Positions 6,068 through 27,730 of a DNA stretch of 27,973 bases are shown here, piece by piece. Origin of the DNA: a virus; the IMG/VR virus record IMGVR_UViG_3300034272_000638, positions 1 through 27,973 of that record; one strand, written 5' to 3'. Both the position numbers and the translations under genes were made by a program. Every line of letters starts with the position of its first letter. The first letter of the stretch is position 1. Below the pieces are notes generated by a model. The model did no database searches, was not told the origin of the DNA, and was given only the letters and a program-made list of their open reading frames with translations.

Positions 6068-6643
6068 ATGCAGATTTTAAGAGTTGGTTCACCTAACTTA
6101 AGTTATAACATTCCCCATTTAAAAGCCCATACAAAGTTCTATTTAGATGGTGTGGAGTTCCACCCACCTAATACTGATGTAGACCACAGTTTTATTCAAA
6201 TCCCCCCTGTTAAGGATAAGTTTGAGAACTACACGGTTACAGAAGGTATCTTACTTTACATTGATGAAGAAGAATCTTCCTCCACCAATACTAGACAACC
6301 TAGAGTTGATGCGAATGGAGAGCCTATCCCTTCTGATGTTAAAGCTATTGAATCAGGTTTAAAGAATAAACTTGCTAGATACCAAAAGTATGTAGACTTT
6401 ACTCGTGGGACTAAGCAAGTAACTAAATTAAATGGTGAAGTGGTGACAGGACCATTAACTAAAAAAGAAGAAAAAGAAGTAACAGTAGAAGAAGTTCCCT
6501 ATACTTGGGAAGACTTCCTATTGGAAGTATTCAATGTTACTGACCCTGAGTTATGGTTACACCAAGAAAAGAAAGCTACGACATCCCAACTAGAAACACC
6601 TGAACATACAGGGACTAGAATTGGTATTAGTAGAGTACTTTAA
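6068..6643 (+). CDS. hypothetical protein after the capsid gene
   Basis: 191 residues, no recognised family. The longer frame from 6023 begins inside the terminator stem; the start at 6068 has a proper AAAGGAG 6-7 nt upstream and is used here. The protein is soluble and charged: an N-terminal beta-like half, a Glu/Ser/Thr-rich middle (IDEEESSSTNTRQ), a Lys/Glu-rich linker (TKKEEKEVTVEE) and a WEDFLLEVFNVTDPELWLH motif near the end. Sitting between capsid and lysis genes, it could be a head-completion or minor capsid protein, but nothing proves this. Confidence 0.8.
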   Translation: MQILRVGSPNLSYNIPHLKAHTKFYLDGVEFHPPNTDVDHSFIQIPPVKDKFENYTVTEGILLYIDEEESSSTNTRQPRVDANGEPIPSDVKAIESGLKNKLARYQKYVDFTRGTKQVTKLNGEVVTGPLTKKEEKEVTVEEVPYTWEDFLLEVFNVTDPELWLHQEKKATTSQLETPEHTGTRIGISRVL

Positions 6644-8353: not shown

Positions 8354-8364
8354 TTGATTTTAAC

Positions 8365-8396
8365 CTCCTATACCATTTCTCCTTGTGGTATGGGAG
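8365..8396 (+). promoter_or_regulatory. 11-bp hairpin after the decoration-like gene
   Basis: CTCCTATACCA (8365-8375) pairs with TGGTATGGGAG (8386-8396) with a single G-U pair and a 10-nt loop. It starts 12 nt after the stop codon. Only TATAAA follows, no T-run, so 3'-end stabilisation or processing is likelier than intrinsic termination. Confidence 0.55.
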
Positions 8397-8415
8397 TATA
8401 AAGTTAATTACAGTG

Positions 8416-8469
8416 GTGGGTTCGGACTTATTTGGGTAATCCAGGTGAGTTGACTGCGACCCACTTTTT
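8416..8469 (+). terminator. candidate Rho-independent terminator with a two-tier stem
   Basis: The outer stem GTGGGT (8416-8421) pairs with ACCCAC (8459-8464). It encloses a second helix CTTATTTGG (8427-8435) with CCAGGTGAG (8441-8449), which uses three G-U pairs, and is followed directly by five T (8465-8469). The long stem makes it less certain than the post-capsid terminator. Confidence 0.5.
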
Positions 8470-8506
8470 AAGTGCATCTACCTATGGTAGAAAGTATTCG
8501 GATAAT

Positions 8507-8528
8507 ACCTCCTATTCATATAGGAGGT
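8507..8528 (+). promoter_or_regulatory. perfect 9-bp hairpin
   Basis: ACCTCCTAT (8507-8515) and ATAGGAGGT (8520-8528) around TCAT, extendable by a U-G and an A-U pair. The 3' arm contains AGGAGG, but no start codon follows at a usable distance, so it is not a hidden ribosome-binding site for any visible gene. No T-run follows. Confidence 0.55.
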
Positions 8529-8548
8529 GTAGTCTGTTAATTACAAAA

Positions 8549-8660
8549 CGTAATAAAAACAACACCTGTATGCCTCCAAATAATAATTTGGTCACTCTAC
8601 TACCTAAAAGTAATTTAGACACCGTACAGACTGTAATACATTACACACAGTGAACATATA
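8549..8660 (-). repeat. dispersed intergenic element, copy 1
   Basis: Read on the minus strand this 112-nt stretch aligns with copies 2 and 3. Shared blocks in order are TTTTAGGTA, TAGAGTGACC (TAAGTGTCC in the others), a CCAAAT...ATTTGG hairpin (8576-8591), GGCATACAG and TTATTACG. On the + strand its right end is AGTGAACATATA (8649-8660), 13 nt before the tail tube A start, repeated exactly at 27918-27929. It encodes nothing. Confidence 0.65.
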
Positions 8661-8667
8661 GAAAGGG
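8648..8667 (+). promoter_or_regulatory. candidate phage-type promoter before tail tube A
   Basis: CAGTGAACATATAGAAAGGG resembles the end of T7/SP6-type single-subunit RNA polymerase promoters (SP6: ACTATAGAAG), with initiation at the G of TATAG. AGTGAACATATA recurs at 27918-27929, and a variant, AGAGAACAT, at 25512-25520, each at the end of a copy or possible copy of the dispersed element. No phage RNA polymerase gene is in the window, so this is only a candidate. AAAGGG also serves as the ribosome-binding site. Confidence 0.35.
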
Positions 8668-8673
8668 TTAATC

Positions 8674-9276
8674 ATGTCTGCTGAATTAGATATTATTAAC
8701 AGGGTATTAACCCTCTTTTACCGAGAAACATTAACAACACTGGATTCGATTAGTTCTGAGATTAATCAGTATAAAAATGTCTTACAGACACAACATAGAC
8801 AACATCAATCCATGGCTAATATGTACACTAATCAATCCTTACTGCAAGTGCAAAAAGATGAGACGACAGGTAAGTTCTTATTACCGTCGGATGTTATTGA
8901 GTGTCTTACTCAAGGATTCACAGTAATTAGTAATGAGTTGAGGGAAGTAACACCTATTCCTCAAATAGCTAAAGAACATGGTGCATCTGTAATTCCATGG
9001 GCTACTGACTTCTTCAAACCTTTTAAACTAACTTCCTTATATCCTACTATCACAGTAGTGGTAAGGAGGATTACTCCTTTAGATGATACATCCCACAACT
9101 ATCGAGATATGATAGCTGCTGCTACAGCATTGGAGTGTTATGACATCAGTGGTGACTTATCGAGAAAAGATATATATGAACGAAAATATGCTCAAGCACT
9201 TCAACGAGTACAGTCAGATGAGTTTCGATATAAGAAACTCAACTTACAAGCGTTGAAGAGTTATGGGAGGGTATAA
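8674..9276 (+). CDS. tail tubular protein A, T7 gp11-like (gatekeeper)
   Basis: Forms the ring joining the portal to the tail nozzle. 200 residues (T7 gp11 is 196). The start EL-DIINRVLTLF resembles the INRVLxxIGE opening of this family. Further on are QVQKDETTGKFLLPSDVIEC, matching the usual 'G-x-LP-x-D' segment before the central beta region, and a helical C-terminus with regular QxxExRYKKLN spacing. It starts a new run of tail genes after the structured gap, with AAAGGG before the ATG, and its TAA overlaps the tail tube B start as TAATG. Confidence 0.85.
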   Translation: MSAELDIINRVLTLFYRETLTTLDSISSEINQYKNVLQTQHRQHQSMANMYTNQSLLQVQKDETTGKFLLPSDVIECLTQGFTVISNELREVTPIPQIAKEHGASVIPWATDFFKPFKLTSLYPTITVVVRRITPLDDTSHNYRDMIAAATALECYDISGDLSRKDIYERKYAQALQRVQSDEFRYKKLNLQALKSYGRV

Positions 9277-11834
9277 TGGCTAAAGCTAGAGCTTCCGCAG
9301 TTACTCAATTTGAATCCTTATCATTCCTTCAAGGAATTAGTCAACAAGCTGCTCCTATTGCTGCACCACTTACCGTGGCAGATAGTAGGAACTTCTTATT
9401 CGACCCTATTGAAGGGGTATATCGTAAACCACCTATGAAGAGATTATACTCTGTGGTTAATGATAATATACCTCGTTATACTTTTATCTCTCCTTTCACT
9501 GGTAACTTAACATTGTTGAAATTAGGTAATCCTATTACCATGTTAGACTTAGTTACTGGTAATCCTATAACAGTAACCCAAGCTGCCTCCACCAATAGTT
9601 ATATTGCAGGTGGTGTAAGTTTCACAGTGGTAGGTGATTATATCACTATGTTCAATAAAAATAAGAATGTAGTTGTTAATTCATTAAACCAAACCACTAC
9701 AACTAAAGCTGTCATCTTCTGTAGGGGTAGTTTTGTTGCCTCCACCACCTATGAGATATATAAAACATTCAAGGGTACAAGGACTACTATTGCTTCTTAT
9801 CATACTGGGTCATTAACCCCCGATACTATTGCTACTGATTTAACAGCAGATATTGTTTCTGCTGAACCTACATGGGGAGCTGTTAGGAGTGGGTCTACTA
9901 TTATGTGTGACCCTAACCCTGGTAAGACACCATCCAGCTATGTGATTACTGGTACACAATGTACAATTACACAACCTGCCCATGGTAGGACTGTATCCTC
10001 TACTGTAGATGTAGACTTCACTACTGGTTCTAACTATACTAAAGGTATTAATGGTATCTATACTATTACTGCTGTGACTACTAATACCTTCACCTTCACC
10101 CATACTGCTGCTGAGACTTCAGGGGAATGCTTATGTGATTATACTAAGCTCTCTGTATCAGATAAAGCTGCTGGGGATGTCATCAGGATTTGTCAACGGT
10201 CAGTGGAGACAATCTCCCAATTACCTGTAGATAACTTTGATGGTTTTGAAATCTTAGTATCAGGCAGTGCTAACAATGATGATAGATACTATGTTAAGTT
10301 TAAAACTACATCAGGTAATGTAAGTGGTGTGGGGACTTATGAAGAGTCTTCTAAACCTGAAGATAGGTTTACATTTGATGCCACTACCATCCCTCACGGA
10401 TTGAAGTATAACAATGATGGGTCTGTTAATATCATTCCTTTACCATTAGATACTAGACGTTATGGAGATAAAGATTCCAACCCTCACCCATCTTTTGTCG
10501 GTACATCCATTAAGGATATGCAGTTACATAAGGGGAGATTAGGTATTCTTACCAATAGAGGTGTAGACTTATCTGATTCAGGTGATGTATTCACCTACTA
10601 CAGAGATACAACTAAAGTCCTTAAAGACTCTGCTGTTATCTCTCTATTAATTGGATTACAATCCTTAGATGAGAAAGCATTATACCTATCCTCCTTCCAA
10701 GGGGAATTGTTAATCTACACCACCCAAGCTATCTTTGCCTTATTCACTAACCAAGAAGATTTGACAGCTTCTACTGCTACTATTAACAAACAGTCTAATG
10801 TAGCTATTAAAGATGATGTTAGACCTGTAGGTATCTCCACCTCCTCTATTGCTATTACCCCTGGTCAAGCAGGATTGAAGGTTATGGAGACATTTAGGCA
10901 AGAGGTAGGGTTATACGTTACCAACTCCTTATCTGATAAAGTACCTTATATTATCTCCCCTGATTGCTTTAAGTTAGCAGCCTCCCATAGATTATCTATG
11001 GTATGGGTGGCTAATGGTGATAACCTAATTAGTTATCAATACTTAGTATCAGGTCAAGAGAGAACTCAGCAAGCATTTGGTTTACATAGTCATCCTTATG
11101 ATACCCTCACTGATATGATACTCCTAGATGGAGAAGGATTATTGGTGACAGGTGGTATTATTGGGGATACTTATTGTATCCATCAAATGAGTTTGAATGT
11201 GAATGATGTATTATCTACACAACTCCCATACCAAATCCATATTGATGACCAAGTCGTCTGCAATCAGAATCCTGTTACTACTCCACACCCATTGTATAGT
11301 TATAATACCACTAGGGTTGATAGAAGCAGCATCCTGACAGATGATTACCTATCAACTCCTTATGAAGCTGTGGGATATAACACCACTGATGGAGTCTGTG
11401 TATCTGTTACTCCTTATATCACCACTAACTATATCTACATTCCTACGGAGTGTAATGAAGTAGTTTTTGGTAGGGATAGTTATAGTTATCTTAAACTACA
11501 TACTATCTATATGGATAATCAAGGTGTTAAGAACTTACAACCTATGCAAATACATAGGATGGCAATCAATACTATTGATACTGGTGGTATTCAACTTAAA
11601 AAGACAAACAATGTAACTCAAGCTGTCTTTACAGAGAACAAACTAGCTTCTAATATCAACACTCCTTTATCCTATTTAAATAAACTACAAAGAGCTACTA
11701 AGCAATTTGTATTTGAAAGAATTGGGATAAACACTAATGTAGATGTTGAAATTGGTTCTGTCAAGTGGTTCCCTATTACAGTAGGTAAAGTTACATATCA
11801 AGGAGAAAGTCATGGTACGGTCTTTGGAATATAA
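9276..11834 (+). CDS. tail tubular protein B, T7 gp12-like (nozzle)
   Basis: Hexameric tail nozzle that closes the channel before ejection. 852 residues (T7 gp12 is 794). The N-terminus, ESLSFLQGISQQAAPIAAPLTVADSRNFLFDPIEGVYRKP (9309-9440 region), is typical: a 'GG(I/V)SQQP' type opening followed by the 'N...(D/S)P..G(L/V)..RP' segment. Beta strands dominate. Residues about 220-288 hold a small domain (AHG...GIYTITAVTTNTFTF) shared with the protein at 7889-8353. The start overlaps tail tube A by one base and the end overlaps the next gene by 23 nt, so three tail genes are coupled. Confidence 0.9.
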   Translation: MAKARASAVTQFESLSFLQGISQQAAPIAAPLTVADSRNFLFDPIEGVYRKPPMKRLYSVVNDNIPRYTFISPFTGNLTLLKLGNPITMLDLVTGNPITVTQAASTNSYIAGGVSFTVVGDYITMFNKNKNVVVNSLNQTTTTKAVIFCRGSFVASTTYEIYKTFKGTRTTIASYHTGSLTPDTIATDLTADIVSAEPTWGAVRSGSTIMCDPNPGKTPSSYVITGTQCTITQPAHGRTVSSTVDVDFTTGSNYTKGINGIYTITAVTTNTFTFTHTAAETSGECLCDYTKLSVSDKAAGDVIRICQRSVETISQLPVDNFDGFEILVSGSANNDDRYYVKFKTTSGNVSGVGTYEESSKPEDRFTFDATTIPHGLKYNNDGSVNIIPLPLDTRRYGDKDSNPHPSFVGTSIKDMQLHKGRLGILTNRGVDLSDSGDVFTYYRDTTKVLKDSAVISLLIGLQSLDEKALYLSSFQGELLIYTTQAIFALFTNQEDLTASTATINKQSNVAIKDDVRPVGISTSSIAITPGQAGLKVMETFRQEVGLYVTNSLSDKVPYIISPDCFKLAASHRLSMVWVANGDNLISYQYLVSGQERTQQAFGLHSHPYDTLTDMILLDGEGLLVTGGIIGDTYCIHQMSLNVNDVLSTQLPYQIHIDDQVVCNQNPVTTPHPLYSYNTTRVDRSSILTDDYLSTPYEAVGYNTTDGVCVSVTPYITTNYIYIPTECNEVVFGRDSYSYLKLHTIYMDNQGVKNLQPMQIHRMAINTIDTGGIQLKKTNNVTQAVFTENKLASNINTPLSYLNKLQRATKQFVFERIGINTNVDVEIGSVKWFPITVGKVTYQGESHGTVFGI

Positions 11835-12270
11835 GAATACCACGATAGAAGAAATGCAAGATTTAGATATTACATCTGATGATATGAAAATTGGGGGTGT
11901 CCTAGATAGGGAGACCTCCATTTCCACCTTCACCCTAATGTTACTATCCAATAATAGATTTGCTAGGACTCTCTATCATTGTGGTCAACCACTGTGTGTG
12001 GTTATGTATGTTGATGGTGTTGGAAGTATCTATAAGCTGAGACAATCCAACCCTGTAACATTAGTTAAGAATATAGATTCAGTGGTGATGACAGTAATGA
12101 AGTTACTATTGAAATATAAAGTAAAACATATTGAAATTGAATACAGCAATAAGAACAAGTTTACTCAGAAGGCTATGAGTTACATGGATGTTCTAGCTGT
12201 TAAGAATGGGTTCAGAACCTATTATAAACAAAATAAAAATACAATAGAATATAAGTTGGAGAGGGATTAA
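11812..12270 (+). CDS. T7 gp13-like protein (tail/internal virion assembly), function by position
   Basis: 152 residues (T7 gp13 is 138) in the gp13 slot between nozzle and gp14-like genes. In T7, gp13 is needed for virion assembly but is not a core ejection protein. The sequence has an alpha/beta look with a GQPLCVVMYVDGVGSIYKL strand pair and a C-terminal Lys-rich helix (HIEIEYSNKNKFTQKAMSYMDVLAVKNGF), which recalls GNAT-acetyltransferase-like folds reported for proteins in this slot; no acetyl-CoA loop is obvious. The ATG lies inside tail tube B behind AAGGAG. Position gives most of the confidence. Confidence 0.7.
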   Translation: MVRSLEYKNTTIEEMQDLDITSDDMKIGGVLDRETSISTFTLMLLSNNRFARTLYHCGQPLCVVMYVDGVGSIYKLRQSNPVTLVKNIDSVVMTVMKLLLKYKVKHIEIEYSNKNKFTQKAMSYMDVLAVKNGFRTYYKQNKNTIEYKLERD

Positions 12271-12275
12271 GGCTA

Positions 12276-12944
12276 ATGATGATGATTGAACCCATCACAA
12301 TGAGCATTATTGGTGCTATTGTTAGTGCGTTAATCGCTGCTGCTGGCTCCACTGCTGCTGCTGTCTCTGCCAGTCAAGCAGCTAACGCACAAGCAGCCAA
12401 CCAACAACGTAACCAAGCTTCTGTTGTTGACCAATATAGAAGGTCTGTTGTTGAAGCAACTAAACGTAAAGCACAAGAAGATGCTAAGTTTGCTGAACAA
12501 AGAGATGCCGAACAAAGAAATAAAATGCAAGCATTAGGTATATTAGAGAATAGAGCTGGTGCTAGTGGTCAAATAGGTAATTCTGTTGATGCCTCATTAG
12601 GGGATTTATATGCTTCTATAGCAAGACAAGAGAACATTGGTAATTACAATGAAAAGATTTTACAACAGAATACTGAAGGTGAGTTTAGGGAATTAGGTAA
12701 TAGCTTTACCTCTACCTTCAACTCTGCTGGTTCTGTATTACAGAAACCTTCTTTCTTAGGTCAAGCTTTAGAAGTAGGTGGAGCCACTATTCAAGGTGGT
12801 CTAGCTGGCTACCAATTAGGTAGTGGTATCGATAGTGCTAACGCTGCTCGTAAAGCTACTGAAGCTAATAATGCTTATCTAGTTAATCAAGGATTAGGTA
12901 AAAGCCTAAATACATTTAAAGGTATGTACAATAATAGACCGTAA
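12276..12944 (+). CDS. internal virion protein B, T7 gp14-like
   Basis: Ejection protein; in T7, gp14 leaves the head first and forms a channel in the outer membrane. 222 residues (T7 gp14 is 196). Residues about 5-32 are a hydrophobic Ala/Ile-rich helix, followed by a long Ala/Gln/Glu/Arg-rich helical segment and a Gly-rich hydrophobic part (GQALEVGGATIQGGLAGYQLG). Both the layout and the position right before gp15- and gp16-like genes fit. The start has three in-frame ATGs (12276, 12279, 12282) behind a weak TAAGG; the first is used here. Confidence 0.82.
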   Translation: MMMIEPITMSIIGAIVSALIAAAGSTAAAVSASQAANAQAANQQRNQASVVDQYRRSVVEATKRKAQEDAKFAEQRDAEQRNKMQALGILENRAGASGQIGNSVDASLGDLYASIARQENIGNYNEKILQQNTEGEFRELGNSFTSTFNSAGSVLQKPSFLGQALEVGGATIQGGLAGYQLGSGIDSANAARKATEANNAYLVNQGLGKSLNTFKGMYNNRP

Positions 12945-12956
12945 AGGAGGTTACAA

Positions 12957-15185
12957 ATGGTAGATAGAAATCCATTGGGTCAATCACAAGACCCCCAACG
13001 ATTAGTCTCTAATGTGACTCCTGTGGCTATTACCCCTGCTCAATATGGAGTAGATACTTCATTAGCAACAGGTATGGCTAAAGCTAGTCAATTCTTATTG
13101 CAAGCTGCGAATGTTGGTACTCAGATTGCTAACAATAAACAAAGAGAATATGAAGCATTATTGAAAGACCAGGGGACTGCTATCGCTATAGCACAAAGAG
13201 ATGTTATTGCTCCTGAATTAGGGAATACCATTACTGGTTTAGATGATGTAAGTAAACAGAAACAAGAATTAGAGAATAGACTTAATAAGGATGCTAACCT
13301 TCCTGCTTCTGAGATTAAACCTTGGGACCAACAAGAAAGTATTCAGAAGTCTAAAGATAAAGAATCTTTATCTCAAGTTAATACTCAAATAGAGAATCTA
13401 ACAACTAGAGAATCACAATTAAAAGCAGCAGCTACTTATATTCCTAAAGGAAATGTAGCAGCTAAAGCTTACTTTGAAACTAAAGTAACTGGTGATTTAG
13501 GAGCAGCTACTTTACAATTAAAGACAGCTATTGCCTCTAACCCCACACTCACCCCTGAACAAATAGATAGGCTCGGTCAGGGTATTAGGAGTCAATACAC
13601 TAAAGCTTATTTGCAAGCTGGTAGTTCAGAATCTGCTGAGACCTTCACTAAAGGTTTTGACTCTGTATTCAATAATATCATTCAAGACAAATATGTAGAT
13701 AGTATTAACTTAGTTCAATCTATGGCTACTACTGCTGCTATGGAGCAGGGGTTGCAAGTCTTAGGTAATAATACTAATACCACTACCCCTAAAATAATCA
13801 CACCTATCTCAACTCCTGGCTTACAGAAACAAACTGTAACTGCTGCACCTCCTGTGGATGGTAGTGCTAAATTAACAGGTAAGTTTGGTGATAATCGTGG
13901 AGACCACAATCATAAAGGTATTGACCTAGCTATTAAAGCTGGTAGTCCTGTAAAGGTTGCAGTTAGTGGGACAGTCACTAAAGTAGGTTATGACCCTGGT
14001 TATGGTAACTTTGTATTTATTAAGAATGTAGATGGTAAAGAAACTAGATATGCCCACTTAGAATCTTCTAATGTCCAGCCAGGACAGAAGTTAGGTAAGG
14101 GTGTAGTGTTAGGTAAGGTAGGTAGTACTGGTAGAAGCACTGGTCCCCACCTCCACTTTGAAGTTAGAGATGGTAGGGGTGTAGCAATAGACCCTATTAA
14201 CTATATCAATAACCTCAACATACCTCCTGCCTCTAAGACTACGGCTATGGTAGCTACAGGTATGGCAGCAGTGGAGAAGGCTAAATATGCTACACCGAGT
14301 GTTCAACAAAATCTTCGTAACACTTACTTTGTAGATAGTATCTCTCAGATATTCAAACTGAATGGTGCTGAAAAAGGAAGTAAACCTGCCACTGACTTGA
14401 TTGATAATGGGTTTAAACAACTCATTGATAGTGGTGTAACTTCTGATAGAGCTTCAGATATTCTTCAACAGTTTATTAAAGCTGCTAAAGAAAAGGTAGC
14501 TAAAGATGGCACTGATTTACCAGCTCAACTAGCTTTAAGACAACTACAAAGTTATAAGAATGATAATGCTATAACTAAGTTCTCTACTTATGAGATTGCT
14601 AAAGCTAATCGTGAAGTCCAACTTAGAGATATTAATACTGCTCAGAATAATGCTAAAGATGCTCAATGGTTTAATGAGTATAAAACAAGAGTAGCTAATG
14701 GTGAAGACCCTGGTACTGCTGCTGCTATGACATCACAGATGTTTGGTAATCCAAGTAAGAATGTTGATAAATGGGTTACTCTCCACAACACTGCTAACAA
14801 TCAAGCTATTGTACGTCAAAACCAACAAGAAGGCATTGCTAGACAAGAGAAGAATAGACAAGAATCTCAGCAAAGAGCTGATGAGAAGGCTAAGAGAACT
14901 ATTGTTGTCCAGTCATTAAAAGGATTGAAGACTACAGACGTAACCAATGTAGTTGGTGAAATAACTAACTCCACCTCCGCTATATTAGGTAGAGTTGAAG
15001 AGCTTGCTCAATCAGAAGCACTTGCTAATGGTACAGATAGAGCAACCTCTATTAAGAAGGCTGCACAACAGTTAGGTATTATATCCCCTAAATCTAAAGC
15101 ACAATCTCCTACTACCAACAGTGGAGGTTCTAATAAAGCTTCTACAGTTAAAAAAAGTAATTCGCAACTAGCCACTGGCTTGTAA
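12957..15185 (+). CDS. internal virion protein C, T7 gp15-like, with an M23 peptidase domain
   Basis: Ejected core protein forming the periplasmic part of the DNA channel. 742 residues (T7 gp15 is 747). Unlike T7 gp15 it carries a LytM/M23 metallo-endopeptidase domain at about residues 305-415: HKGID (His319, Asp323), YAHLE (His367) and GPHLHFE (His398, His400), a complete zinc and catalytic set. This should cut peptidoglycan cross-links during ejection, the job done in T7 by the transglycosylase at the start of gp16. Flanking parts are helical; a Gln/Arg/Glu-rich coiled region lies at about 615-650. AAAGGAGG before the ATG is the strongest ribosome-binding site in the window. Confidence 0.88.
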   Translation: MVDRNPLGQSQDPQRLVSNVTPVAITPAQYGVDTSLATGMAKASQFLLQAANVGTQIANNKQREYEALLKDQGTAIAIAQRDVIAPELGNTITGLDDVSKQKQELENRLNKDANLPASEIKPWDQQESIQKSKDKESLSQVNTQIENLTTRESQLKAAATYIPKGNVAAKAYFETKVTGDLGAATLQLKTAIASNPTLTPEQIDRLGQGIRSQYTKAYLQAGSSESAETFTKGFDSVFNNIIQDKYVDSINLVQSMATTAAMEQGLQVLGNNTNTTTPKIITPISTPGLQKQTVTAAPPVDGSAKLTGKFGDNRGDHNHKGIDLAIKAGSPVKVAVSGTVTKVGYDPGYGNFVFIKNVDGKETRYAHLESSNVQPGQKLGKGVVLGKVGSTGRSTGPHLHFEVRDGRGVAIDPINYINNLNIPPASKTTAMVATGMAAVEKAKYATPSVQQNLRNTYFVDSISQIFKLNGAEKGSKPATDLIDNGFKQLIDSGVTSDRASDILQQFIKAAKEKVAKDGTDLPAQLALRQLQSYKNDNAITKFSTYEIAKANREVQLRDINTAQNNAKDAQWFNEYKTRVANGEDPGTAAAMTSQMFGNPSKNVDKWVTLHNTANNQAIVRQNQQEGIARQEKNRQESQQRADEKAKRTIVVQSLKGLKTTDVTNVVGEITNSTSAILGRVEELAQSEALANGTDRATSIKKAAQQLGIISPKSKAQSPTTNSGGSNKASTVKKSNSQLATGL

Positions 15186-15199
15186 GAAGGAGATACACA

Positions 15200-18100: not shown

Positions 18101-21100
18101 CAATACCTTGTACCTACTCCTGAAGCTCAAAAGGCTATAGTAGTTAGTGGTAATAAACAGAGAATTGTTAATCGTATTCAACAAACTGATTACTATCAAT
18201 CTCTTCCTACTGCTGAGAAATCTGCTATTCAACTAAAGTTCAGAAGTAAAGGCAGTACACCTAATGATGCTCAAAAGTTCTTAGATGATATTTTATCAGG
18301 TAAAATAAAGGATACTCCCAATGGGGAAACAGCAACAGTCAAAGTTGAAAAGGTTGACTCAACCAAAGGTAGTCAAACCAAAACAGACACCAAAACCGAA
18401 ACCGAAGAAACCACCATTCAACCCAACACTCCCTCGGAAGTCGGAGATGGCTTAGATAGTGAATACTATACTAATGAAGATGTAGTAGGTGTTGTAAATA
18501 ACATCTCAGGTGGTGCTAATGTTAAGGCTAGTAGGTCTGATATAGATGCTGCTGTAATGAACATCGTCAATAATAGTAGGAAGAATGGATTAGATTATGA
18601 ATCTACTATCCACATCTTATCTCAATTCTTTGAAGATGTCAATAAGCAGATGAATACTCAAACTAACTTTGGTACTTATGAAACACCTAATGCTTTATCT
18701 CGTGGTACTATTAGTAGAACTGCTGACAGACTAGGTATTAACCCTAACTCCCTTATCCACTACATCAATCAAAATGTAGTAGAGGATGGATTACAGAAGG
18801 TTTATAAAGCTGAAGCTGTAGCTGCTATGGCTAACCACTTTGATAATATGTTGAAGGAAGCTTTAGATGTAGTAGGTAAAGCTGATGATGCTGAGTTCTT
18901 ACAACGTCCTTACAACACCTTCCCTATCTCAGGTAATGGGGGTAAGAAAGCTGAACCTGGATTATCTCCTACTGACAACTTACTAGATGTTATTAGTCGT
19001 ATTGAATTATTCACTAAAGTAGTCACTCCTGATTTACAGAAGATGGTAGAGGCTAGTGGATTGTATGCTTCTGATTTGAATGAATTAGTTAAACCATTAC
19101 AAGAAGCTAAGAAAGCTAATGCTTTATTCCAAGACTTTATTCCTGATATTGCTGAAATAGAAGGAAAGAAAGTATTGATGGAGAATCCATCCCCTGATGT
19201 TACTTCTACTAAATCTTCTGTATTAGCAGATATGTATAAAAAAGAAGAATACCAAACAGATGAATTAGTCCATAGTAAAGTATTAAATACCTTAGTTGAT
19301 GGTAAGAAGTTAGCTAACCAGCAAGATACATTTGCTGAAGTAAAGCACGTCTTAAAAGATTTCAATGCTGTTAGGGTTCAATACTCTAACCCTCTTAAAC
19401 TTCAATTAGGAATGGGTATAGGTAAAGCCCTCACCTCTTCTATTACTGCTGGTTATAATGCTGGTGTAGATGCTACTGTAGCTGCCACTATTGGTGCTAT
19501 GGTCCACTCCACTAATGTTGTAGCATTGCAGTTTGTAGGTGGCTTTATGGGAGTCCTCTATAACTTACAGAAGTTTGGGGGTGGTATTATCAATACTGCT
19601 GCTGCTAGAGGGATGTATGCTTTCACTAATAAGAACATATACAAAGAAGCTGGATTTACACAAGCTGCTGCTGTTTATGAATCACTGGCAGAATTACAAG
19701 CTGGTATGAGTGCATTCAAAACTATTGGTAATACATTTGCTGCTGCTGTCAGAGCTGTACCTCAAGGCGGTCACCCTATGACTGCTAGACACTCAGGAAA
19801 CTTAGAAGCTATATTCAAAGCTTCTTCTAAACAGTTTAAAGAGGGTAGTTTAGGTTATAGTTCATTGAATACCTTTGGTAAGTGGTTGGGTGTAGGGCAG
19901 AAAGCTTATGCTACTCCTATCTCCTTCTTAGATAGTTTAATGACTATCCACACTGCTAAAGTTAAATCTAGGGCTGCTGTATTACGAAATGTAATGATTT
20001 CTCAAGAGTATAAAGAACTTAACTTAACTCCTGGTACTAAAGAGTGGAGTCAGTATGTTAATGGTAAAGTAGATGAGGTTATGCCTAAAGACTACTTTGT
20101 ATGGAATAAGGATACTAATGCTTCCACCCATGCTGTTACCTATACTGAGCCATTACCTAAAGTACTTCGTGCAAATGAAAATGCTTGGGAAGTAATTAAA
20201 AGAGAAGGTGTAGCTAGAACATTCTTTGGGCTTACTGATGAGATAGCTCAAGTTGGTGCTGCTATTGCCCCACCTCTTAGACCTTACTTCACTTTATTCT
20301 CTACTGTTGCAGGTAACGTATTAAACCAATCACTTGGTGTAGTAGGTTCTCGTGATGGTATGGTATTAGGTAAAACTCTTAGTGGTGATGGTACACTCAA
20401 CTTTAGTAGTTGGGCTGAGAATTACTACAGTAAACTTGCGGATAAAGATACCTATGAAGCTATGGCATTTAGTGCTGGTAATGTAGCTTTAGGTTTAACA
20501 GCTCTCGGTGGTGCTTGGTTATTTGCTGAGCAACATAAGGATTGGTTAACTAAGAAGGGGAACTTCCTCCTTAATGAAGAAGATGACTTCCCTGGTATTA
20601 GACTCCTCCAACAATCTTTAGGATATGAATATAACCCTCTTACTGGTGGTTATGATACCGCTACTAAAGTTAGAGTTGGTGATTCCTTGACTGTAAACCT
20701 ATCTCAAATACCACTACCCTTCCTACTCCCTGCTATTAACTTCTATAGAGATATTACGTTAGTTAATGAAGGGTATAGTGAGCAGTTGAACAGTAATGTC
20801 GATACAAGTGGTAATGTGCTTGCTGCATTAGATGCTGAAAAAGAAGCTGGTTATGGTTTAGCTATGCAAAACTTCTTTAGAAGTGTTCTACCATTAGATT
20901 CTGCTAAAGACTTGAAAGAGACTGGGAAGAATCTCCTTACTGATACTATGAAACTACATATTCAGTTGAATGATTTATATAATGTATTCAGTGGTAATAG
21001 AGGAAATGAAGACCTATATGACCCTATTACTAATGTGGCTTTAGGTATGGCTGACCCTTTAACTCAAGAACTCCTCCTCCATGGATTGGCTTCTAAAGTG

Positions 21101-21922
21101 TTCCCACAACTACAGGAAATATCTGTTACTTCGTTAAAGTTAGATACTCACAGTGCTAAAGATTTAAAAATCTATGAAGCTGCTAGTATCTTAAAGACTG
21201 GTACTTCAATGGATACACTGATTCACTACCCTGGTGTATACTCTGTAACAGGAGACCCTAGAGTAGCGACTCGTTCTGCTTTTGTAGAACAGAAACCTGG
21301 TGCATCGGCTGATGTTGGTATCCAAGAATTAGATAGATTAAATAAGAGGTATCCTCTTTCTAAACTAGCTGATAACTTAGTATTCAACCTACACCCTATG
21401 GGTGGTGGTTCAGTACAACCATCTCATACAGTATGGGGTGGGGTTAAGGGTATCAATGGTAGTCACATTGTAGCTGCTACTTTAAGGAACTATAGACTAG
21501 GTAATAACTCTGACCCTCGGTCAGCTTTATACCCTTACAATGGAAAGACTCTCCCACAAGCTTTGAGAATCCTGATAAACTCTGAAGCTTATAGGAATGC
21601 TCCTGATGCTTACCTAGATGATAAAAAAGTCTTAGGTAATCCTGATGAGAGTAGGGAAAGAGAATCTAAAGTAACAATGGTTAAGACTCTGTTTAATGTT
21701 TACCATGAACGGATTAATGACTTGTTATCCTCTGACCCCTCCCTATTTGTAATAGAATCTTCCAATAGTAAAGGTACTAGCTTAATCCCTATTACTGAAG
21801 TAGAACAAGACCCTGGTGTTGATAATAGACCTAAAGGTTTAAGAACAGTACAACCTGTACCTCAACAACAAATAGATGATTTTACTAATAAGTTAATTAA
21901 TAACACTAAAAGTGTTTTATAA
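15200..21922 (+). CDS. internal virion protein D, T7 gp16-like, very large
   Basis: Largest ejection protein, expected to span the periplasm and inner membrane and to help pull the genome in. 2240 residues against 1318 for T7 gp16. I see no lytic transglycosylase motif at the N-terminus. Visible parts: a Gly/Asn/Gln-rich start; hydrophobic, Ala/Gly-rich stretches at about 277-453, 1410-1475 and 1755-1785 that could insert in a membrane; a Lys/Gln/Glu coiled-coil-like region at about 550-770; and a Thr/Glu/Lys low-complexity linker at about 1037-1080 with different codon choice, dividing the protein in two. AAGGAG precedes the ATG. The last codons form a small hairpin (AACACT/AGTGTT). Position after gp14- and gp15-like genes is decisive. 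Confidence 0.85.
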   Translation: MDEQLNQMGTEAQPYRTGITVDSNMLGGTGIDLQGGGDGIGNTLNGIDLTNLLQQTGVQSQPQVTNEGPTPLDDFLDGVGTVVDQSTNFNQGGLGSEYKQNIGMPNYLSQAAEMYAKDNEQLAKAFGLYGGVTGGITDTDVAVKLDKLPTEVYNQLQRNYADLLRQDAAQRLTPNFQEEGIGQQVLKGINTALEPVAAIGRGIENSTAKLIGLGADVVGLGSQAIGSLIPGNDVFEDFAKSSFDTANEFNKYGGSKFVDINKSIVDGSPYDWMNPNNFSTTLFNALSLGSELGFDALIAMATGGGTASANFFGKTAINTMAKQAANTLKVGNIGVAKALRKALADATIKDIKTGGGLFLPGIGQLSSSQAVAMLQAGGRGLATALAITPAAVFGTVQLSRGPIPNVFNAFQEGGNEELRKTDFISTANRVAQDILGEVVVAGGLGVAAGAIKALGTKIVTESIDLEAIKQVLPTLPESSAASKVIETMVQLRHNAVAQEVYKVADKFNIHTELPQANIGKAVAKWATEAVKPPSTGTFNVGGQAGYHPQVTKLLDDYANVQKQLVENLKTVKTSQEAEQIIKQAEVEHAQIAELAKAVTSESNGEIKRIAKTRVPSKELSESIDNLVRTNNGGVAPVSIEKANAAATVNMLIKQDTPSTNIATLTEEIKALKVGNKKTPPKNPKLLAQYAKDLETNKSLLKQKQSELKEQKNLQQAKSRSNLLTQIMDKQKEIQEIVEGTRLQVQEGTVKKNLAKAEKIINAHKADPQGLSLSKKLEEAGIPLKPAKKGMNTKNRLYQLTTEDVELFDTNHPDLSTLSIKDKRLLASEELNDLTPLQLKELNNELNRIYDDSEEGGLLGRKLSKLIPDDSIFRPEYTSDSGITTLLPEDMLLSLNKLESQYNELADIDLQLAQTVGISNDALNLQRTVIANQIADSVSKKMGGFELNPKKLVENYNNSLRESVPEEYQYLVPTPEAQKAIVVSGNKQRIVNRIQQTDYYQSLPTAEKSAIQLKFRSKGSTPNDAQKFLDDILSGKIKDTPNGETATVKVEKVDSTKGSQTKTDTKTETEETTIQPNTPSEVGDGLDSEYYTNEDVVGVVNNISGGANVKASRSDIDAAVMNIVNNSRKNGLDYESTIHILSQFFEDVNKQMNTQTNFGTYETPNALSRGTISRTADRLGINPNSLIHYINQNVVEDGLQKVYKAEAVAAMANHFDNMLKEALDVVGKADDAEFLQRPYNTFPISGNGGKKAEPGLSPTDNLLDVISRIELFTKVVTPDLQKMVEASGLYASDLNELVKPLQEAKKANALFQDFIPDIAEIEGKKVLMENPSPDVTSTKSSVLADMYKKEEYQTDELVHSKVLNTLVDGKKLANQQDTFAEVKHVLKDFNAVRVQYSNPLKLQLGMGIGKALTSSITAGYNAGVDATVAATIGAMVHSTNVVALQFVGGFMGVLYNLQKFGGGIINTAAARGMYAFTNKNIYKEAGFTQAAAVYESLAELQAGMSAFKTIGNTFAAAVRAVPQGGHPMTARHSGNLEAIFKASSKQFKEGSLGYSSLNTFGKWLGVGQKAYATPISFLDSLMTIHTAKVKSRAAVLRNVMISQEYKELNLTPGTKEWSQYVNGKVDEVMPKDYFVWNKDTNASTHAVTYTEPLPKVLRANENAWEVIKREGVARTFFGLTDEIAQVGAAIAPPLRPYFTLFSTVAGNVLNQSLGVVGSRDGMVLGKTLSGDGTLNFSSWAENYYSKLADKDTYEAMAFSAGNVALGLTALGGAWLFAEQHKDWLTKKGNFLLNEEDDFPGIRLLQQSLGYEYNPLTGGYDTATKVRVGDSLTVNLSQIPLPFLLPAINFYRDITLVNEGYSEQLNSNVDTSGNVLAALDAEKEAGYGLAMQNFFRSVLPLDSAKDLKETGKNLLTDTMKLHIQLNDLYNVFSGNRGNEDLYDPITNVALGMADPLTQELLLHGLASKVFPQLQEISVTSLKLDTHSAKDLKIYEAASILKTGTSMDTLIHYPGVYSVTGDPRVATRSAFVEQKPGASADVGIQELDRLNKRYPLSKLADNLVFNLHPMGGGSVQPSHTVWGGVKGINGSHIVAATLRNYRLGNNSDPRSALYPYNGKTLPQALRILINSEAYRNAPDAYLDDKKVLGNPDESRERESKVTMVKTLFNVYHERINDLLSSDPSLFVIESSNSKGTSLIPITEVEQDPGVDNRPKGLRTVQPVPQQQIDDFTNKLINNTKSVL
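21902..21920 (+). promoter_or_regulatory. small hairpin over the end of the gp16-like gene
   Basis: AACACT (21902-21907) pairs with AGTGTT (21911-21916) around AAA, followed by TTAT including the stop region. Six base pairs with a short T-run make a weak terminator at most. Confidence 0.3.
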
Positions 21923-21940
21923 GTAGTTATTGAATCTTCT

Positions 21941-21978
21941 CTCCCCTACATAGATACTTATCTATACGCTCAGGGGAG
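21941..21978 (+). terminator. two-tier hairpin after the gp16-like gene, terminator-like
   Basis: CTCCCCT (21941-21947) pairs with AGGGGAG (21972-21978). Inside, ATAGATA (21950-21956) faces TATCTAT (21959-21965). It begins 18 nt after the stop codon of the 6.7-kb gene. The GC-rich base would stop a polymerase or protect a 3' end, but no T-run follows, so true intrinsic termination is unproven. Confidence 0.4.
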
Positions 21979-22009
21979 CATAGATTTAATACTCAGTCGA
22001 TACTCTATC

Positions 22010-22121
22010 AGAATCGCCTGGATACACGCTAAAACTATACCTGTATGAGGCGTAAATACATTTTAGGTACTAAGTGTCCAAAACTATATTTTGGAAGCTC
22101 CTAGTGTATGTGTATCATAAC
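22010..22121 (+). repeat. dispersed intergenic element, copy 2
   Basis: Plus-strand copy. From 22061 it aligns without gaps to the reverse complement of copy 3 over 65 nt, with 49 identities by hand count; shared blocks include TTTAGG, ACTAAGTGTCCAAA, AGTGTAT and TATCATAAC. Two hairpins lie inside: CGCCT/AGGCG with ATACA/TGTAT nested (22015-22052), and TCCAAAA/TTTTGGA (22077-22083 with 22089-22095). The second is matched in copy 1 by CCAAAT/ATTTGG, so pairing is kept while bases differ. Confidence 0.65.
22091..22118 (+). promoter_or_regulatory. weak candidate sigma-70 promoter for the tail fibre
   Basis: TTGGAA (22091-22096) and TATCAT (22113-22118) are separated by 16 nt, with 4/6 and 5/6 matches to -35 and -10 consensus. 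It would start transcription just before the hairpin leader. AT-rich DNA gives such matches by chance, so confidence is low. Confidence 0.25.
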
Positions 22122-22134
22122 AATTATTCTTGAG

Positions 22135-22198
22135 ATAGCTAACTCGCTCACTTCACTTGTGAAGTTAGCTGTATTGCTCCACAAAGTGAGCGGAAGGA
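22135..22198 (+). promoter_or_regulatory. tail fibre leader with mutually exclusive hairpins
   Basis: Three inverted repeats overlap. (i) AGCTAAC (22137-22143) with GTTAGCT (22164-22170), extendable by two pairs. (ii) ACTTCAC (22150-22156) with GTGAAGT (22159-22165). (iii) CGCTCACTT (22145-22153) with AAGTGAGCG (22184-22192). Pairing iii shares bases with ii and ends at the first G of the GGAAGGA ribosome-binding site (22192-22198). A switch between forms could control fibre translation. Confidence 0.55.
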
Positions 22199-22203
22199 AC
22201 ATT

Positions 22204-23526
22204 ATGACATATAATCCTATCACATATACCGCCAGTGGTGGTCAGACAGTATTCAATATCCCCTTCACCAGGATTAGTGATACTTACATTAAGGTAGCTA
22301 CTAAATTAGTTGGAGCTACCAACTATATTACTCAAAGTGTTAGCACTAACTATACTATCGTAGGGAATACAGTAGTATTTAATATAGGTTTAGATTCAGG
22401 TGTAAAGGTACGGATATGGAGAAGTACCAATAGAGCATCATTAGTAGATTTCAATGGGGTTAATAATCTTACCTCCTCTAACTTAGGTTTAACCACCACT
22501 CAGCAATCAAATATAGCAGAAGAGGTGGAGTCAGACTTAGATGATTTGAATGCAATAGTGGATGGTATTGTTACTTCTGTTGTTGGGTTTGACCCTGATA
22601 ATGTATCTAATACTTATTTAGAATTACAGGGGGATGTAGCTGCCTATGCGGCTGATGTAGCTGCCGCTGTGGCTGATTTAGAAGATGCTGTGGCTGATTT
22701 AGAAGATGCTACCACATCCTTTGCCGCACAGACTACCCAAGTAGCTACTAATACTACCAACATAACTAATCTCATCAACCAAGGTACTTTACCTAATGGG
22801 TATGTAACTACTCCTGTACCTACCTACACCTCTGCTAGAGTTGTAAACTTTAATGGGATAGCGGCTGCTAGGACTACAGACAATGTAAGTAACATTGTAT
22901 TAGCATCTTCTAGTCGGAACTTAGACTTAAACACTACTGGTGCTAATGGTTTAAATACTGGTACTGTAGCTAACAACACTTGGTATTATGTTTACTTATA
23001 CCAAAATGGTTATGTTGCTTCTACCACTAATAATGCTACTACTTTAACTATTGCTTCTGTATCCCAAAAAGTTGTGCAGTTGCCGTTGACTTTGAGAACT
23101 GACGGCTCGGCAAACATTCTGCCGTTTGTGCTTGAACAATGGAATGGTAAAACTTCTTCAATCCGATATAGAGATACAGAAGAAACAAGTGCGTATCAAA
23201 TACTTTCAGGTGGTACGGCTTCTAGTTTTACAGCCGTTAGTTGCAGTTCCTTTGTCCCCCCAAATAGCCGTGTAGCGTTTATAAATGTAATGGCTTCGGG
23301 TGGAGGTGGCGGTGCAGCAGGGACTGTATGGACGAGGGAAACTGGAACAAACATAACAATAGGGAAGGTCGTGGCTAGACAAAGCCTAGATTCGGTTAGT
23401 GGCTATTGGAGGTCGGACCAAATCTACCCAAACACACAAACTTTAAATAGTTCCCAACAATTTGACTATAGACGTAATGATGGGAACGCAAGTATGCATG
23501 TACTAGGCTACACAATCAACTTATAA
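22204..23526 (+). CDS. tail fibre protein, T7 gp17-like N-terminus, mosaic C-terminus
   Basis: Trimeric fibre that anchors to the tail and binds the host receptor. The start at 22204 has GGAAGGA upstream. 440 residues (T7 gp17 is 553). Residues 1-130 match the T7 fibre anchor pattern: YTASGGQTVFNIPF, a VRIWRSTNRASLVDFNG strand pair and TTTQQSNIAEEVESD. A coiled-coil stem follows, with two identical AVADLED heptads (exact 21-nt tandem repeat). The last 150 or so residues, ending in a Gly-rich MASGGGGGAAG and a beta-rich tip, come from about 23065 on with clearly different codons (CCG, GCG, CTG, GTG, TTG), suggesting acquisition by recombination. Two small proteins follow closely. Confidence 0.88.
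   Translation: MTYNPITYTASGGQTVFNIPFTRISDTYIKVATKLVGATNYITQSVSTNYTIVGNTVVFNIGLDSGVKVRIWRSTNRASLVDFNGVNNLTSSNLGLTTTQQSNIAEEVESDLDDLNAIVDGIVTSVVGFDPDNVSNTYLELQGDVAAYAADVAAAVADLEDAVADLEDATTSFAAQTTQVATNTTNITNLINQGTLPNGYVTTPVPTYTSARVVNFNGIAAARTTDNVSNIVLASSSRNLDLNTTGANGLNTGTVANNTWYYVYLYQNGYVASTTNNATTLTIASVSQKVVQLPLTLRTDGSANILPFVLEQWNGKTSSIRYRDTEETSAYQILSGGTASSFTAVSCSSFVPPNSRVAFINVMASGGGGGAAGTVWTRETGTNITIGKVVARQSLDSVSGYWRSDQIYPNTQTLNSSQQFDYRRNDGNASMHVLGYTINL
22666..22707 (+). repeat. 21-bp exact tandem duplication in the tail fibre stem
   Basis: GCTGTGGCTGATTTAGAAGA plus T occurs twice in direct succession (22666-22686, 22687-22707), encoding AVADLED twice. Seven residues is one coiled-coil heptad, so the repeat changes stem length without breaking the register. 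Identical bases point to a recent duplication. Confidence 0.9.
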
Positions 23527-23537
23527 GGATTTTACAT

Positions 23538-23906
23538 ATGCCATTTTACGCATTTACTAATTTAACTAATAATACTTACACCTCCTTCAGGATGGTGGAA
23601 GCAGACTGGGAGTTGGGAGTTGATGAAACATTAGTGGAAGCTAACTCCTTAGAAGGTTACTCTGAAGCTATTCCACCTCCTCCTCCTCTATCAATAGATA
23701 GTAAAAGACTCATCTTAATGGAGCAATTTAAAGGCTTACCTGAATTAACTAGGAGAGTTTTTAAACAAACAGCTTTAGATGTAGAGGGATTTCTACGCTT
23801 AGAGGATATTAATAATGCTATCTTCTTCTTAGAACAAGCTCAGTTGGAACCTAATGCTGATACAGTTTTAATACAAAATATGATTAACTTCTTAGGAGAA
23901 GACTAA
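23538..23906 (+). CDS. small protein after the tail fibre, possible fibre chaperone
   Basis: 122 residues. An N-terminal part with aromatic residues (YAFTNLTNNTYTSFRMVEADWELG) leads through an IPPPPPL proline linker to a helical C-terminal domain (SKRLILMEQFKGLPELTRRVFKQTALDVEGFLRLEDINNAIFFLEQAQL). Short two-part proteins with a proline linker just after a fibre gene are often fibre assembly chaperones, and that is the best guess. A small terminase subunit is the alternative, since none is recognised elsewhere in the window, but no DNA-binding motif is evident. AAGGA precedes the ATG; the stop overlaps the next start (TAATG). Confidence 0.7.
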   Translation: MPFYAFTNLTNNTYTSFRMVEADWELGVDETLVEANSLEGYSEAIPPPPPLSIDSKRLILMEQFKGLPELTRRVFKQTALDVEGFLRLEDINNAIFFLEQAQLEPNADTVLIQNMINFLGED

Positions 23907-24265
23907 TGACTACAACCAATGTAAATAATATCAGGAGTGGTGTTAATAGAACATCTTCTTGGAACAACTCTGCTGCCTCTACTTCTGTAGTGTTACTGCC
24001 CCAAACAGGTGGGAGGATTCCTACTGATTTATACTACCAAGTAACTGGATTTAGCTGTGTACCGACTAATGATGCTACCCTTACCCTTATCTCAGGTAAC
24101 TCTACTAATGCTTCCACTGATAAAGTGTTGTGGGAGACTACTGTAAAAGCTAATACGAGAATTGACTTTGTAGATGAGTTCATTACTACAGCTATTGGTG
24201 ATGCTTTAAAGATTACCACTACTGCTGTTATTGGTAAGTTTACATTAGTGGTAGAGCATAAGTAA
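23906..24265 (+). CDS. small beta-rich protein, probable virion component, family unknown
   Basis: 119 residues, Thr/Ser/Asn-rich with alternating hydrophobic residues, no helix-rich stretch, no membrane segment. It looks like a single beta sandwich (VVLLPQTGG, YYQVTGFSC, ATLTLISGN, VLWETTVKANTRIDFVDEF, GKFTLVVEHK). Start overlaps the previous stop by one base. Its place in the fibre cassette suggests an accessory adhesion or decoration role; nothing identifies it further. Confidence 0.65.
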   Translation: MTTTNVNNIRSGVNRTSSWNNSAASTSVVLLPQTGGRIPTDLYYQVTGFSCVPTNDATLTLISGNSTNASTDKVLWETTVKANTRIDFVDEFITTAIGDALKITTTAVIGKFTLVVEHK

Positions 24266-24276
24266 AGGAGTTTATA

Positions 24277-24400
24277 ATGGCTTTACTTTTCACTGACGAG
24301 TAGCTTCTCTTTATCTTCTGCTATTACTGGTGAATTAAGCTATACTGAGGCACAACAAGTACACACCTCCTTGTATAAGATTTATACAACAGGTTATTAA
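24277..24400 (+). pseudogene. small frameshifted gene, or one using +1 frameshifting
   Basis: An AAAGGAG-ATG start at 24277 gives only MALLFTDE before TAG at 24301. From 24296 the +1 frame continues open for 34 codons to TAA at 24398 with normal phage codon use (SSFSLSSAITGELSYTEAQQ, then VHTSLYKIYTTGY). That frame has no ATG and is closed upstream by TAA at 24275. A single base gained or lost, an assembly error, or programmed +1 slippage before the TAG would join the parts into a protein of about 40 residues. The intact start signal and coding-like 3' part argue that this is or was a gene. Function unknown. Confidence 0.5.
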
Positions 24401-24415
24401 AAGTAAGGAATTACT

Positions 24416-24658
24416 ATGGAAATAAAAAGTGGTGATATAGTAGCATTAGCTCAATCACCAGTAGCACTAGCATTAATTGTTGCTGTGGTAATCTTAGTAG
24501 GATTAATGCCTATCAAAGACTCCACCACCGCTATTGTAACTGAATTACATGATGTGAATAGTAATATAGAAGAACTAACTGACCAAGTCGGAAGACATGA
24601 GAAGTTATTAGCAGACTTATCTGCAAAAGTAGATAATTTATCAAAGGAAAGAAAATAA
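24416..24658 (+). CDS. probable holin (single membrane helix, coiled-coil tail), T7 gp17.5 position
   Basis: 80 residues. Residues about 14-33 form one hydrophobic helix (SPVALALIVAVVILVGLMPI), followed by a 45-residue region with regular hydrophobic spacing (VTELHDVNSNIEELTDQVGRHEKLLADLSAKVDNL), a good coiled coil, and a charged KERK end. T7 has a small one-helix holin (gp17.5) in the same place after the fibre. A holin releases the endolysin encoded far upstream. An inner-membrane spanin is the alternative, because spanins also combine an N-terminal helix with a coiled coil, though they are longer. TAAGGA precedes the ATG; the stop overlaps the next start. Confidence 0.6.
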   Translation: MEIKSGDIVALAQSPVALALIVAVVILVGLMPIKDSTTAIVTELHDVNSNIEELTDQVGRHEKLLADLSAKVDNLSKERK

Positions 24659-25356
24659 TGATTTCAAAGTTTAAACCAAACTTCTTACAAGCTAAGGTGA
24701 CCCCTGAGTCCTTCAATCTTACTGGTGATGCGTTACACAACACCTTAGTATTACAGAAAGCCTTTAGGTTTGATGTATTAGATACTGATGGTATTACACC
24801 TGTAGGACGCTACATCTATAATGGCGAGGCTATCCCTGGTGGTACTGCTGTATCAACAGCAAATACTTTAGAGTTCTATCCATTCATTGTACAGCAAGCT
24901 ATCTTTGTAGATAAGATTGCATTCGGTACAACAGCTACTGGTACTAATGGTAACGGTGTGGTAGGTATTTATAATACTAAGGATAATGTTCCTTCACAAC
25001 TTATCATCTCTTCAGGTGCTAAAGCTATTGATAACACATTAGCTTCTACTACTCTTACTTCAAGAGTATTGCTAGTACCTGGTGTATATTGGGTTGCTCG
25101 TAATACGTCTTCTAACAAGACCTTTACTGCATTCCCTACAGCACAGGCTCACCTATTGTTAGGTGCTGCTATTACTGACTTAACCACCTTTGCTGCTGGT
25201 CCTACTGCTACTGGTTTATCTGTAGCATTTACCTACACTGGTACTCTACCTACCACTGCTCCCTCTGTAGCAGCAGCTACATTCTTAACTACTTCAGTTC
25301 CTGCTGTAGCTTTAAATGTAGTATCTCTACCTACACCTGCTACCGTTAAACGATAG
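24658..25356 (+). CDS. beta-rich protein of the fibre cassette, possible second adhesin
   Basis: 232 residues. The first 50 may be a docking part (FKPNFLQAKVTPESFNLTGD). Then comes a jelly-roll-like region with DKIAFGTTATGTNGNGVVGIYNT, QLIISSGAKAID and LVPGVYWVARNTSSNKTF, resembling beta-sandwich receptor-binding or structural proteins of phages in general. The C-terminus is Ala/Thr/Pro-rich with a basic end. No signal peptide. AAAGGA precedes the ATG, which overlaps the holin stop. Receptor binding is inferred only from fold-like pattern and place. Confidence 0.6.
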   Translation: MISKFKPNFLQAKVTPESFNLTGDALHNTLVLQKAFRFDVLDTDGITPVGRYIYNGEAIPGGTAVSTANTLEFYPFIVQQAIFVDKIAFGTTATGTNGNGVVGIYNTKDNVPSQLIISSGAKAIDNTLASTTLTSRVLLVPGVYWVARNTSSNKTFTAFPTAQAHLLLGAAITDLTTFAAGPTATGLSVAFTYTGTLPTTAPSVAAATFLTTSVPAVALNVVSLPTPATVKR

Positions 25357-25367
25357 TTTACTCTGAT

Positions 25368-25398
25368 TTCTCCTCGCTTAGCAATAGGTGGAGGAGAA
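25368..25398 (+). terminator. 8-bp hairpin after the fibre cassette, terminator-like
   Basis: TTCTCCTC (25368-25375) pairs perfectly with GAGGAGAA (25391-25398) around 15 nt, starting 11 nt after the stop codon. No T-run follows, so it may be a 3'-end stabiliser. It holds the same place relative to the repeat element as the hairpins at 8365 and 21941. Confidence 0.4.
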
Positions 25399-25410
25399 GA
25401 CAGAATAAAT

Positions 25411-25520
25411 CGTTATGATAGATATACACTGTATGCTCTTGAAATATCTATTTGGACACTTAGTGCCTAAAGTTGATTTACGCAGCTCACAGCGTGTTAT
25501 TTACAGAACACAGAGAACAT
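25411..25520 (-). repeat. dispersed intergenic element, copy 3
   Basis: Minus-strand copy, 110 nt. Its reverse complement matches copy 2 ungapped over 65 nt (49 identities by hand count). It also shares GCATACAG and, at its + strand right end, CACAGAGAACAT (CACAGTGAACAT in copy 1). It lies in inverted orientation to copy 2 and direct orientation to copy 1. Confidence 0.65.
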
Positions 25521-25580
25521 TCGATGAACAGTTACGAAGTAACTTTCATCCATGTAACCATTATAATAAGGAGAAAGATA

Positions 25581-27658: not shown

Positions 27659-27730
27659 AATAATCCCGAACGGTACTATTTGCTTAATAATCTAGTGAAA
27701 TAATAGTAAATACTCCCTATCGGGATTATT
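27659..27730 (+). terminator. long hairpin after the terminase gene, candidate terminator
   Basis: AATAATCCCGA (27659-27669) pairs perfectly over 11 bp with TCGGGATTATT (27720-27730). A second stem inside is TACTATT (27674-27680) with AATAGTA (27702-27708). It starts 5 nt after the stop; the AT-rich flanks give a T-rich tail on either strand, so it could act in both directions at the end of the late region. Confidence 0.6.

Follow-up and report, generated by a model that had tools for sequence, protein, structure and literature searches.

The 27,973-nt window analysed here, which is the virus record IMGVR_UViG_3300034272_000638, contains three copies of a non-coding element of ~110 nt, each of which is quasi-palindromic: two related half-sites of ~48 nt stand head to head about a shared centre. 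This two-fold symmetry is the main new result. The genome that carries the element is a new phage of the T7-terminase type. Its terminase large subunit matches the T7-type family (NCBIfam NF033889 termin_lrg_T7, 247.7 bits, cut-off 150) and shares just 26-30% identity with those of isolated phages; for the capsid protein, a search of 50,697 phage records gave no relative at all. The recognised genes all lie on the + strand, and their order (portal, scaffold, capsid, tail tubes, internal virion proteins, fibre, terminase) follows that of T7. About 93% of the window is predicted to be coding, and its three largest internal gaps, at 8354-8673, 21923-22203 and 25357-25586, hold one copy each. We infer that the copies mark the borders between late transcription units, where late-operon signals belong.

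The repeat itself is well supported. In leave-one-out searches of the window with nhmmer, using profiles built without the copy under test, copy 1 was recovered at 8637-8566 (E 1.2e-5), copy 2 at 22040-22125 (E 2.4e-10) and copy 3 at 25522-25408 (E 2.3e-13); the next matches had E values of ~1 or more, except for copy 3 on its opposite strand. The local alignment scores of all three pairs exceed those of all 1000 shuffles, so that the repeat stands. An initial sequence-only reading had given the correct coordinates and orientations for the copies, and its count of 49 identities over 65 nt between copies 2 and 3 is exact for their best 65-nt stretch; in all, 63 of 85 nt are identical in an ungapped alignment of these two copies. 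The spaced pattern CTGT-N8-TAAAT-N4-TTTAGG-NANTA is present without mismatch in every copy and, when up to three mismatches are allowed, has three matches in the window where 0.1 would be expected.

That the element is non-coding, as originally described, is borne out by its substitutions, which are spread evenly over the three codon positions. Copy 3 has an open frame that reads ...FGHLVPK..., and copy 2 has it in part, with KY-FGHLVPK common to the two copies in one frame without insertions or deletions, as might be left by a decayed coding sequence. This origin is very improbable, and is largely refuted by the even codon-position substitutions, by an in-frame TAG stop in copy 2 within the best shared frame, and by the lack of any relative in PHROGs or by tblastn.

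Table 1. Positions of the element copies, their half-sites (assigned with a half-site hidden Markov model, HMM) and the neighbouring hairpins in the window.
Feature	Positions	Strand	Context or basis
Element copy 1	8549..8660	-	320-nt gap before tail-tubular-A-like gene (8674-9276); symmetry centre ~8598
Copy 1 left half-site	8600..8647	-	half-site HMM
Copy 1 right half-site (inverted)	8549..8596	+	half-site HMM
Element copy 2	22010..22121	+	281-nt gap before tail-fibre-like gene (22204-23526); symmetry centre ~22072
Copy 2 left half-site	22025..22071	+	half-site HMM
Copy 2 right half-site (inverted)	22073..22121	-	half-site HMM
Element copy 3	25411..25520	-	230-nt gap before T7-type terminase large subunit gene (~25587-27653); symmetry centre ~25461
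Copy 3 left half-site	25462..25511	-	half-site HMM
Copy 3 right half-site (inverted)	25412..25460	+	half-site HMM
Four strong RNA hairpins in a row next to copy 1, immediately 3' of upstream stop codon	8354..8536	+	fold z
Long imperfect hairpin 5' of copy 2, after stop codon of 2240-aa virion protein gene	21923..21993	+	21923-22005, z -3.7
Long hairpin beside copy 3, after upstream stop codon	25357..25409	+	25357-25408, z -4.3

When the copies are split at the centre, which is the same aligned base in all three, the six resulting half-sites align with one another and give the rough consensus ATA-ACAC-CTGTATG-N5-(T/C)AAATA-N3-TTT(A/G)GG-N-(C)ACT. A profile of the copies also matches copy 3 on the opposite strand, and scores 20.5 bits against its own reverse strand, compared with a maximum of 6.5 bits in 300 column shuffles. 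The total similarity between left and right half-sites is 198, a value reached by none of 2000 column-block shuffles in which the family alignment of each arm was preserved (126 +/- 10.5, maximum 186). Searches of the rest of the window, of the close contigs L003 and L004 and of the early-region relative L014 turned up no solitary half-sites. The three copies had been described as aligning when placed in a common orientation. They do align in this way, but for a quasi-palindrome the orientation itself is only weakly defined, which explains why it is mixed; for a symmetric site, it is no longer a problem that copies 1 and 3 point opposite to the direction of transcription.

What does this symmetry conserve, a motif or the pairing of the two arms? 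Self-pairing under selection, whether as RNA or as a cruciform, should make left-right similarity higher within copies than between them. The similarity amounts to 142 over the six cross-copy pairs (mean 23.7) and to 56 over the three within-copy pairs (mean 18.7). Since the cross-copy value is not the lower of the two, the conserved trait seems to be the motif rather than base pairing. In copy 2 the left arm retains CTGTATG while the right arm reads CTAGGAGC, and the pairing between them is lost.

A function for the element, which the sequence-only reading thought likely, is a reasonable expectation, if unproven with only a few very close relatives available for testing. Among the functions that were listed, the two-fold symmetry makes a DNA-level site, be it for regulation, replication or recombination, the better fit, and structured RNA is the least supported. 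We tentatively favour a two-fold symmetric DNA site at late-operon borders that may be bound by protein. The head-to-head half-sites would constitute a cis-acting site, recognised by a putative dimeric or multimeric DNA-binding protein that would most likely be phage-encoded. Recognition would occur where late units begin, ahead of tail tubular A, the tail-fibre cluster and the terminase, and the element and its adjoining stem-loops could together set late gene expression.

Several observations weigh against such a protein-binding site. The symmetry, although statistically clear, is weak to modest in terms of identity: HMMs built from the left halves alone find no right halves at E < 5, and those built from the right halves find only the left half of copy 3 (E 0.4). 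Left-right similarity within copies also exceeds that of the shuffles (p 0.0065). RNAalifold gives a Y-shaped consensus fold on the strand of the sequence-only reading in which 6 of 17 pairs are changed on both sides, and its consensus energy (z -6.3) is lower than in all 200 simple column shuffles; these pair counts come from three distinct copies, and column shuffles are a lenient control. The distance from element to start codon differs between the copies (~13, 80 and 66 nt for copies 1, 2 and 3), and there is no element before the capsid gene, which in T7-like phages is where the strongest late signals are found.

The consensus fold could be that of a transcribed, structured RNA, with an outer CTGT/ACAG stem and two hairpins, TAAA/TTTA and CCAAA/TTTGG, that might serve in RNase III-like processing, in transcript stability or as a leader. 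A quasi-palindrome would permit similar folding of either strand, and on the + strand the sequences that flank the element within these gaps show strong structure. We nevertheless consider this rather unlikely, given that the fold energies of single copies (z -0.4 to -2.6 on either strand) are no better than those of shuffles, that hairpin covariation is lacking and that the copies are mixed in orientation relative to transcription. The CCAAA/TTTGG stem had been thought to be kept with different bases in copies 1 and 2. In fact the stem bases of these two copies are identical and the variation is confined to the loop, and in copy 3 the stem is broken by TTTCA in place of TTTGG; the hairpin is thus without covariation. 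Most of the outer stem is disrupted in copy 2, in the window as in L004, and complementarity within copies is no better than the similarity between them. The window has no Rfam match at E <= 1 and the element none at E <= 2, the gaps giving just sub-threshold chance matches. Taken with the consensus fold, these results leave some room for an RNA or cruciform role.

A better candidate for structured RNA than the repeated element is the row of hairpins beside copy 1. The region 8354-8545 folds with z -7.9 (to -9.0) on the + strand, where none of 200 shuffles is as stable, and with z -3.6 on the - strand; the row has no Rfam match. In the hairpin beside copy 2, the CTCCCCT/AGGGGAG stem (21939-21979) is kept in L004 and the interior is replaced. 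Long imperfect hairpins directly 3' of a stop codon recur on the + strand in the large late gaps, at 27659-27730 as well as beside copies 2 and 3, with an outer A/T-rich stem and, in the two beside the element, an inner stem of CTCC/GGAG type. A further hairpin, in the leader of the capsid gene, has its stem kept and its bases changed between the window (4740-4775, AATAGGT-tatt-ACCTATT) and L014 (AACAGG-tattatt-TCCTGTT).

Close relatives are few. Only three contigs were found: L003 (6.2 kb), L004 (7.4 kb) and L014 (16 kb). The first carries copy 3 and the second copies 2 and 3, at the same places as in the window, to which both contigs are 97-99% identical; L014, the early half of a cousin phage, has no copy. 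The element is therefore kept in its close relatives, but since these are so close its conservation is weak evidence of function. Copy 3 in L003 and L004 differs by a single change, G25465A, to the base present in copies 1 and 2. Scans with the portal, capsid, terminase and tail-tube proteins found no relatives between ~30% and 87% amino acid identity in which deep conservation could be judged; poly-Q patterns compromised the scan with the portal alignment. When viral contigs were searched with DNA patterns, both exact and degenerate, the element proved to be confined to L003 and L004/L005; L010-L013 and L110-L119 gave pattern matches with little similarity beyond them and were rejected as carriers. 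The bacterial genomes, phages and plasmids searched contain no real match.

The relatives also bear on whether the element is a mobile or recombination cassette, akin to miniature inverted-repeat transposable elements or to the PeSL units of T4-like phages, which would lie between genes, spread by recombination and mark the borders of modules. Copies lie in both orientations, purely between genes and in unrelated flanks; their arms are inverted, and the tail-fibre cluster lies between copies 2 and 3, which are inverted relative to each other. From 22042 onward L004 has the same copy 2 sequence as the window, and the 92 nt that precede this border at 22041/22042 are strongly diverged and carry TAAATAACACGCTGT, as does copy 3. 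The distal tail-fibre region also differs between the window and L004. Against this, none of the relatives shows an empty site, an extra copy or a target-site duplication (the last judged by eye), and the arms are probably too diverged for efficient homologous pairing. Blocks of clustered differences are found far from the element as well (for example 27033-27113 and 24753-24945), so that nothing sets the breakpoint near copy 2 apart, and we regard a cassette as having a rather small chance of being correct. Such tight blocks, another of which lies at 23681-23758, are what short-tract recombination with diverged relatives would be expected to leave among near-identical phages.

Late genes of T7-like phages are usually thought to be run by short unidirectional promoters and terminators. 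Could the element simply contain a late promoter, for a phage-type RNA polymerase or for host sigma-70? It precedes three late genes or gene groups, copy 2 includes a weak sigma-70-like sequence, TTGGAA-16-TATCAT, and TTTTAGGTA-CTA in the element may faintly resemble SP6-type promoters. This explanation is nonetheless unlikely. Copies 1 and 3 are directed against transcription, no copy is found before the capsid gene or in L014, and sigma-70 matches are no commoner than in shuffles. Sigma-70 and terminator scans of the gaps stayed at chance level, except that copy 3 contains a single weak match of terminator type, and a Gibbs-type search for a common + strand promoter motif yielded nothing convincing. 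Clear host-type promoters are located elsewhere, after the terminase in L003 (TTGACA-17-TATACT). There, positions 4560-6235 include ~1.2 kb of mostly non-coding sequence with a TTTC-rich tract and the promoters TTGACA-17-TATACT and TTGTAA-17-TATACT, each with TG; this is probably the early promoter region at the left end of the genome. A 12-mer, AGTGAACATATA, is common to 8649-8660 (before the tail-tubular-A gene) and 27918-27929 (after the terminase) on the + strand of the window, and is a possible phage promoter core.

Repeated non-coding intergenic motifs are known from other phages, among them the extended start-associated sequences (ESAS) of Cluster K mycobacteriophages and the inverted motifs of Microbacterium phages of clusters EF and EG, of which ESAS and the EG motif consist of paired inverted half-sites of unknown function (PMC3203893, PMC7302621). 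These motifs measure 17-18 bp, occur in several to a dozen copies, are tied to start codons and lie nearly all in one orientation, the ESAS spacer being mostly 4-13 bp (PMC3203893, PMC7302621). Like ESAS and the EG motif, our element is phage-specific, repeated and intergenic, with paired inverted half-sites. It differs in its half-sites of ~48 bp, its three copies in the late region and in both orientations, its unrelated sequence, and its varied spacing from the start codon, whereas an ESAS lies immediately 5' of a start codon that has an SAS motif. In T4-like phages, PeSL (promoter early stem-loop) units are described as mobile regulatory cassettes in which a terminator-like stem-loop accompanies an early promoter, and a part in module shuffling has been proposed for them (Arbiol et al. 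2010; Comeau et al. 2014, as summarised in PMC4503421). To the extent of that summary, the element resembles PeSL as a repeated intergenic unit beside a stem-loop and is unlike it in that no early promoter was recognised there, the promoter scan being no better than shuffles; as to shuffling, there is the one L004 breakpoint near copy 2, with similar breakpoints elsewhere. The element is not a full match to ESAS, the Microbacterium motifs or PeSL.

Elements of the type of miniature inverted-repeat transposable elements, such as RUP and the Correia repeats, are ~100 bp long, palindromic, intergenic and present in both orientations. Our element shares all of these features, but has three diverged copies only, with no target-site duplication, empty site or cognate transposase seen. 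In T7 the signals in late gaps are unidirectional promoters of ~20 bp and strongly folding RNase III sites. The element likewise occupies late-gene gaps, in a phage whose terminase is of T7 type, and is neither unidirectional and ~20 bp long nor strongly folding.

Repeated non-coding stretches do occur at other phage loci that were surveyed. In Chosvirus KM23C739 (KT997847) the repeats, at 22075-22255 and 22784-22964, proved to be a pair of group I introns (Rfam RF00028, 78 and 77 bits) within a capsid gene region that is annotated in the record as two separate capsid proteins; group I intron cores were accordingly considered for the window, and excluded. In L014, a SegE-type GIY-YIG endonuclease (11271-11669) adjoins a ribonucleotide reductase (12086-14758), both on the - strand, and the large subunit of the reductase has a sub-threshold intein-like match.

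Finally, what would the element mean for phages of this kind? It might represent an undescribed class of symmetric DNA control site of ~100 bp in T7-like phages, acting through a putative phage protein as an orientation-independent insulator or switch of late units, although we think this doubtful. Were the element to serve as a cassette for recombination, T7-like phages would gain a rare example of the border elements known in T4-like phages. If it is a long symmetric site repeated at late borders, as we tentatively favour, this lineage would have an extra DNA-binding factor, and the three copies offer a ready bait with which to find it.

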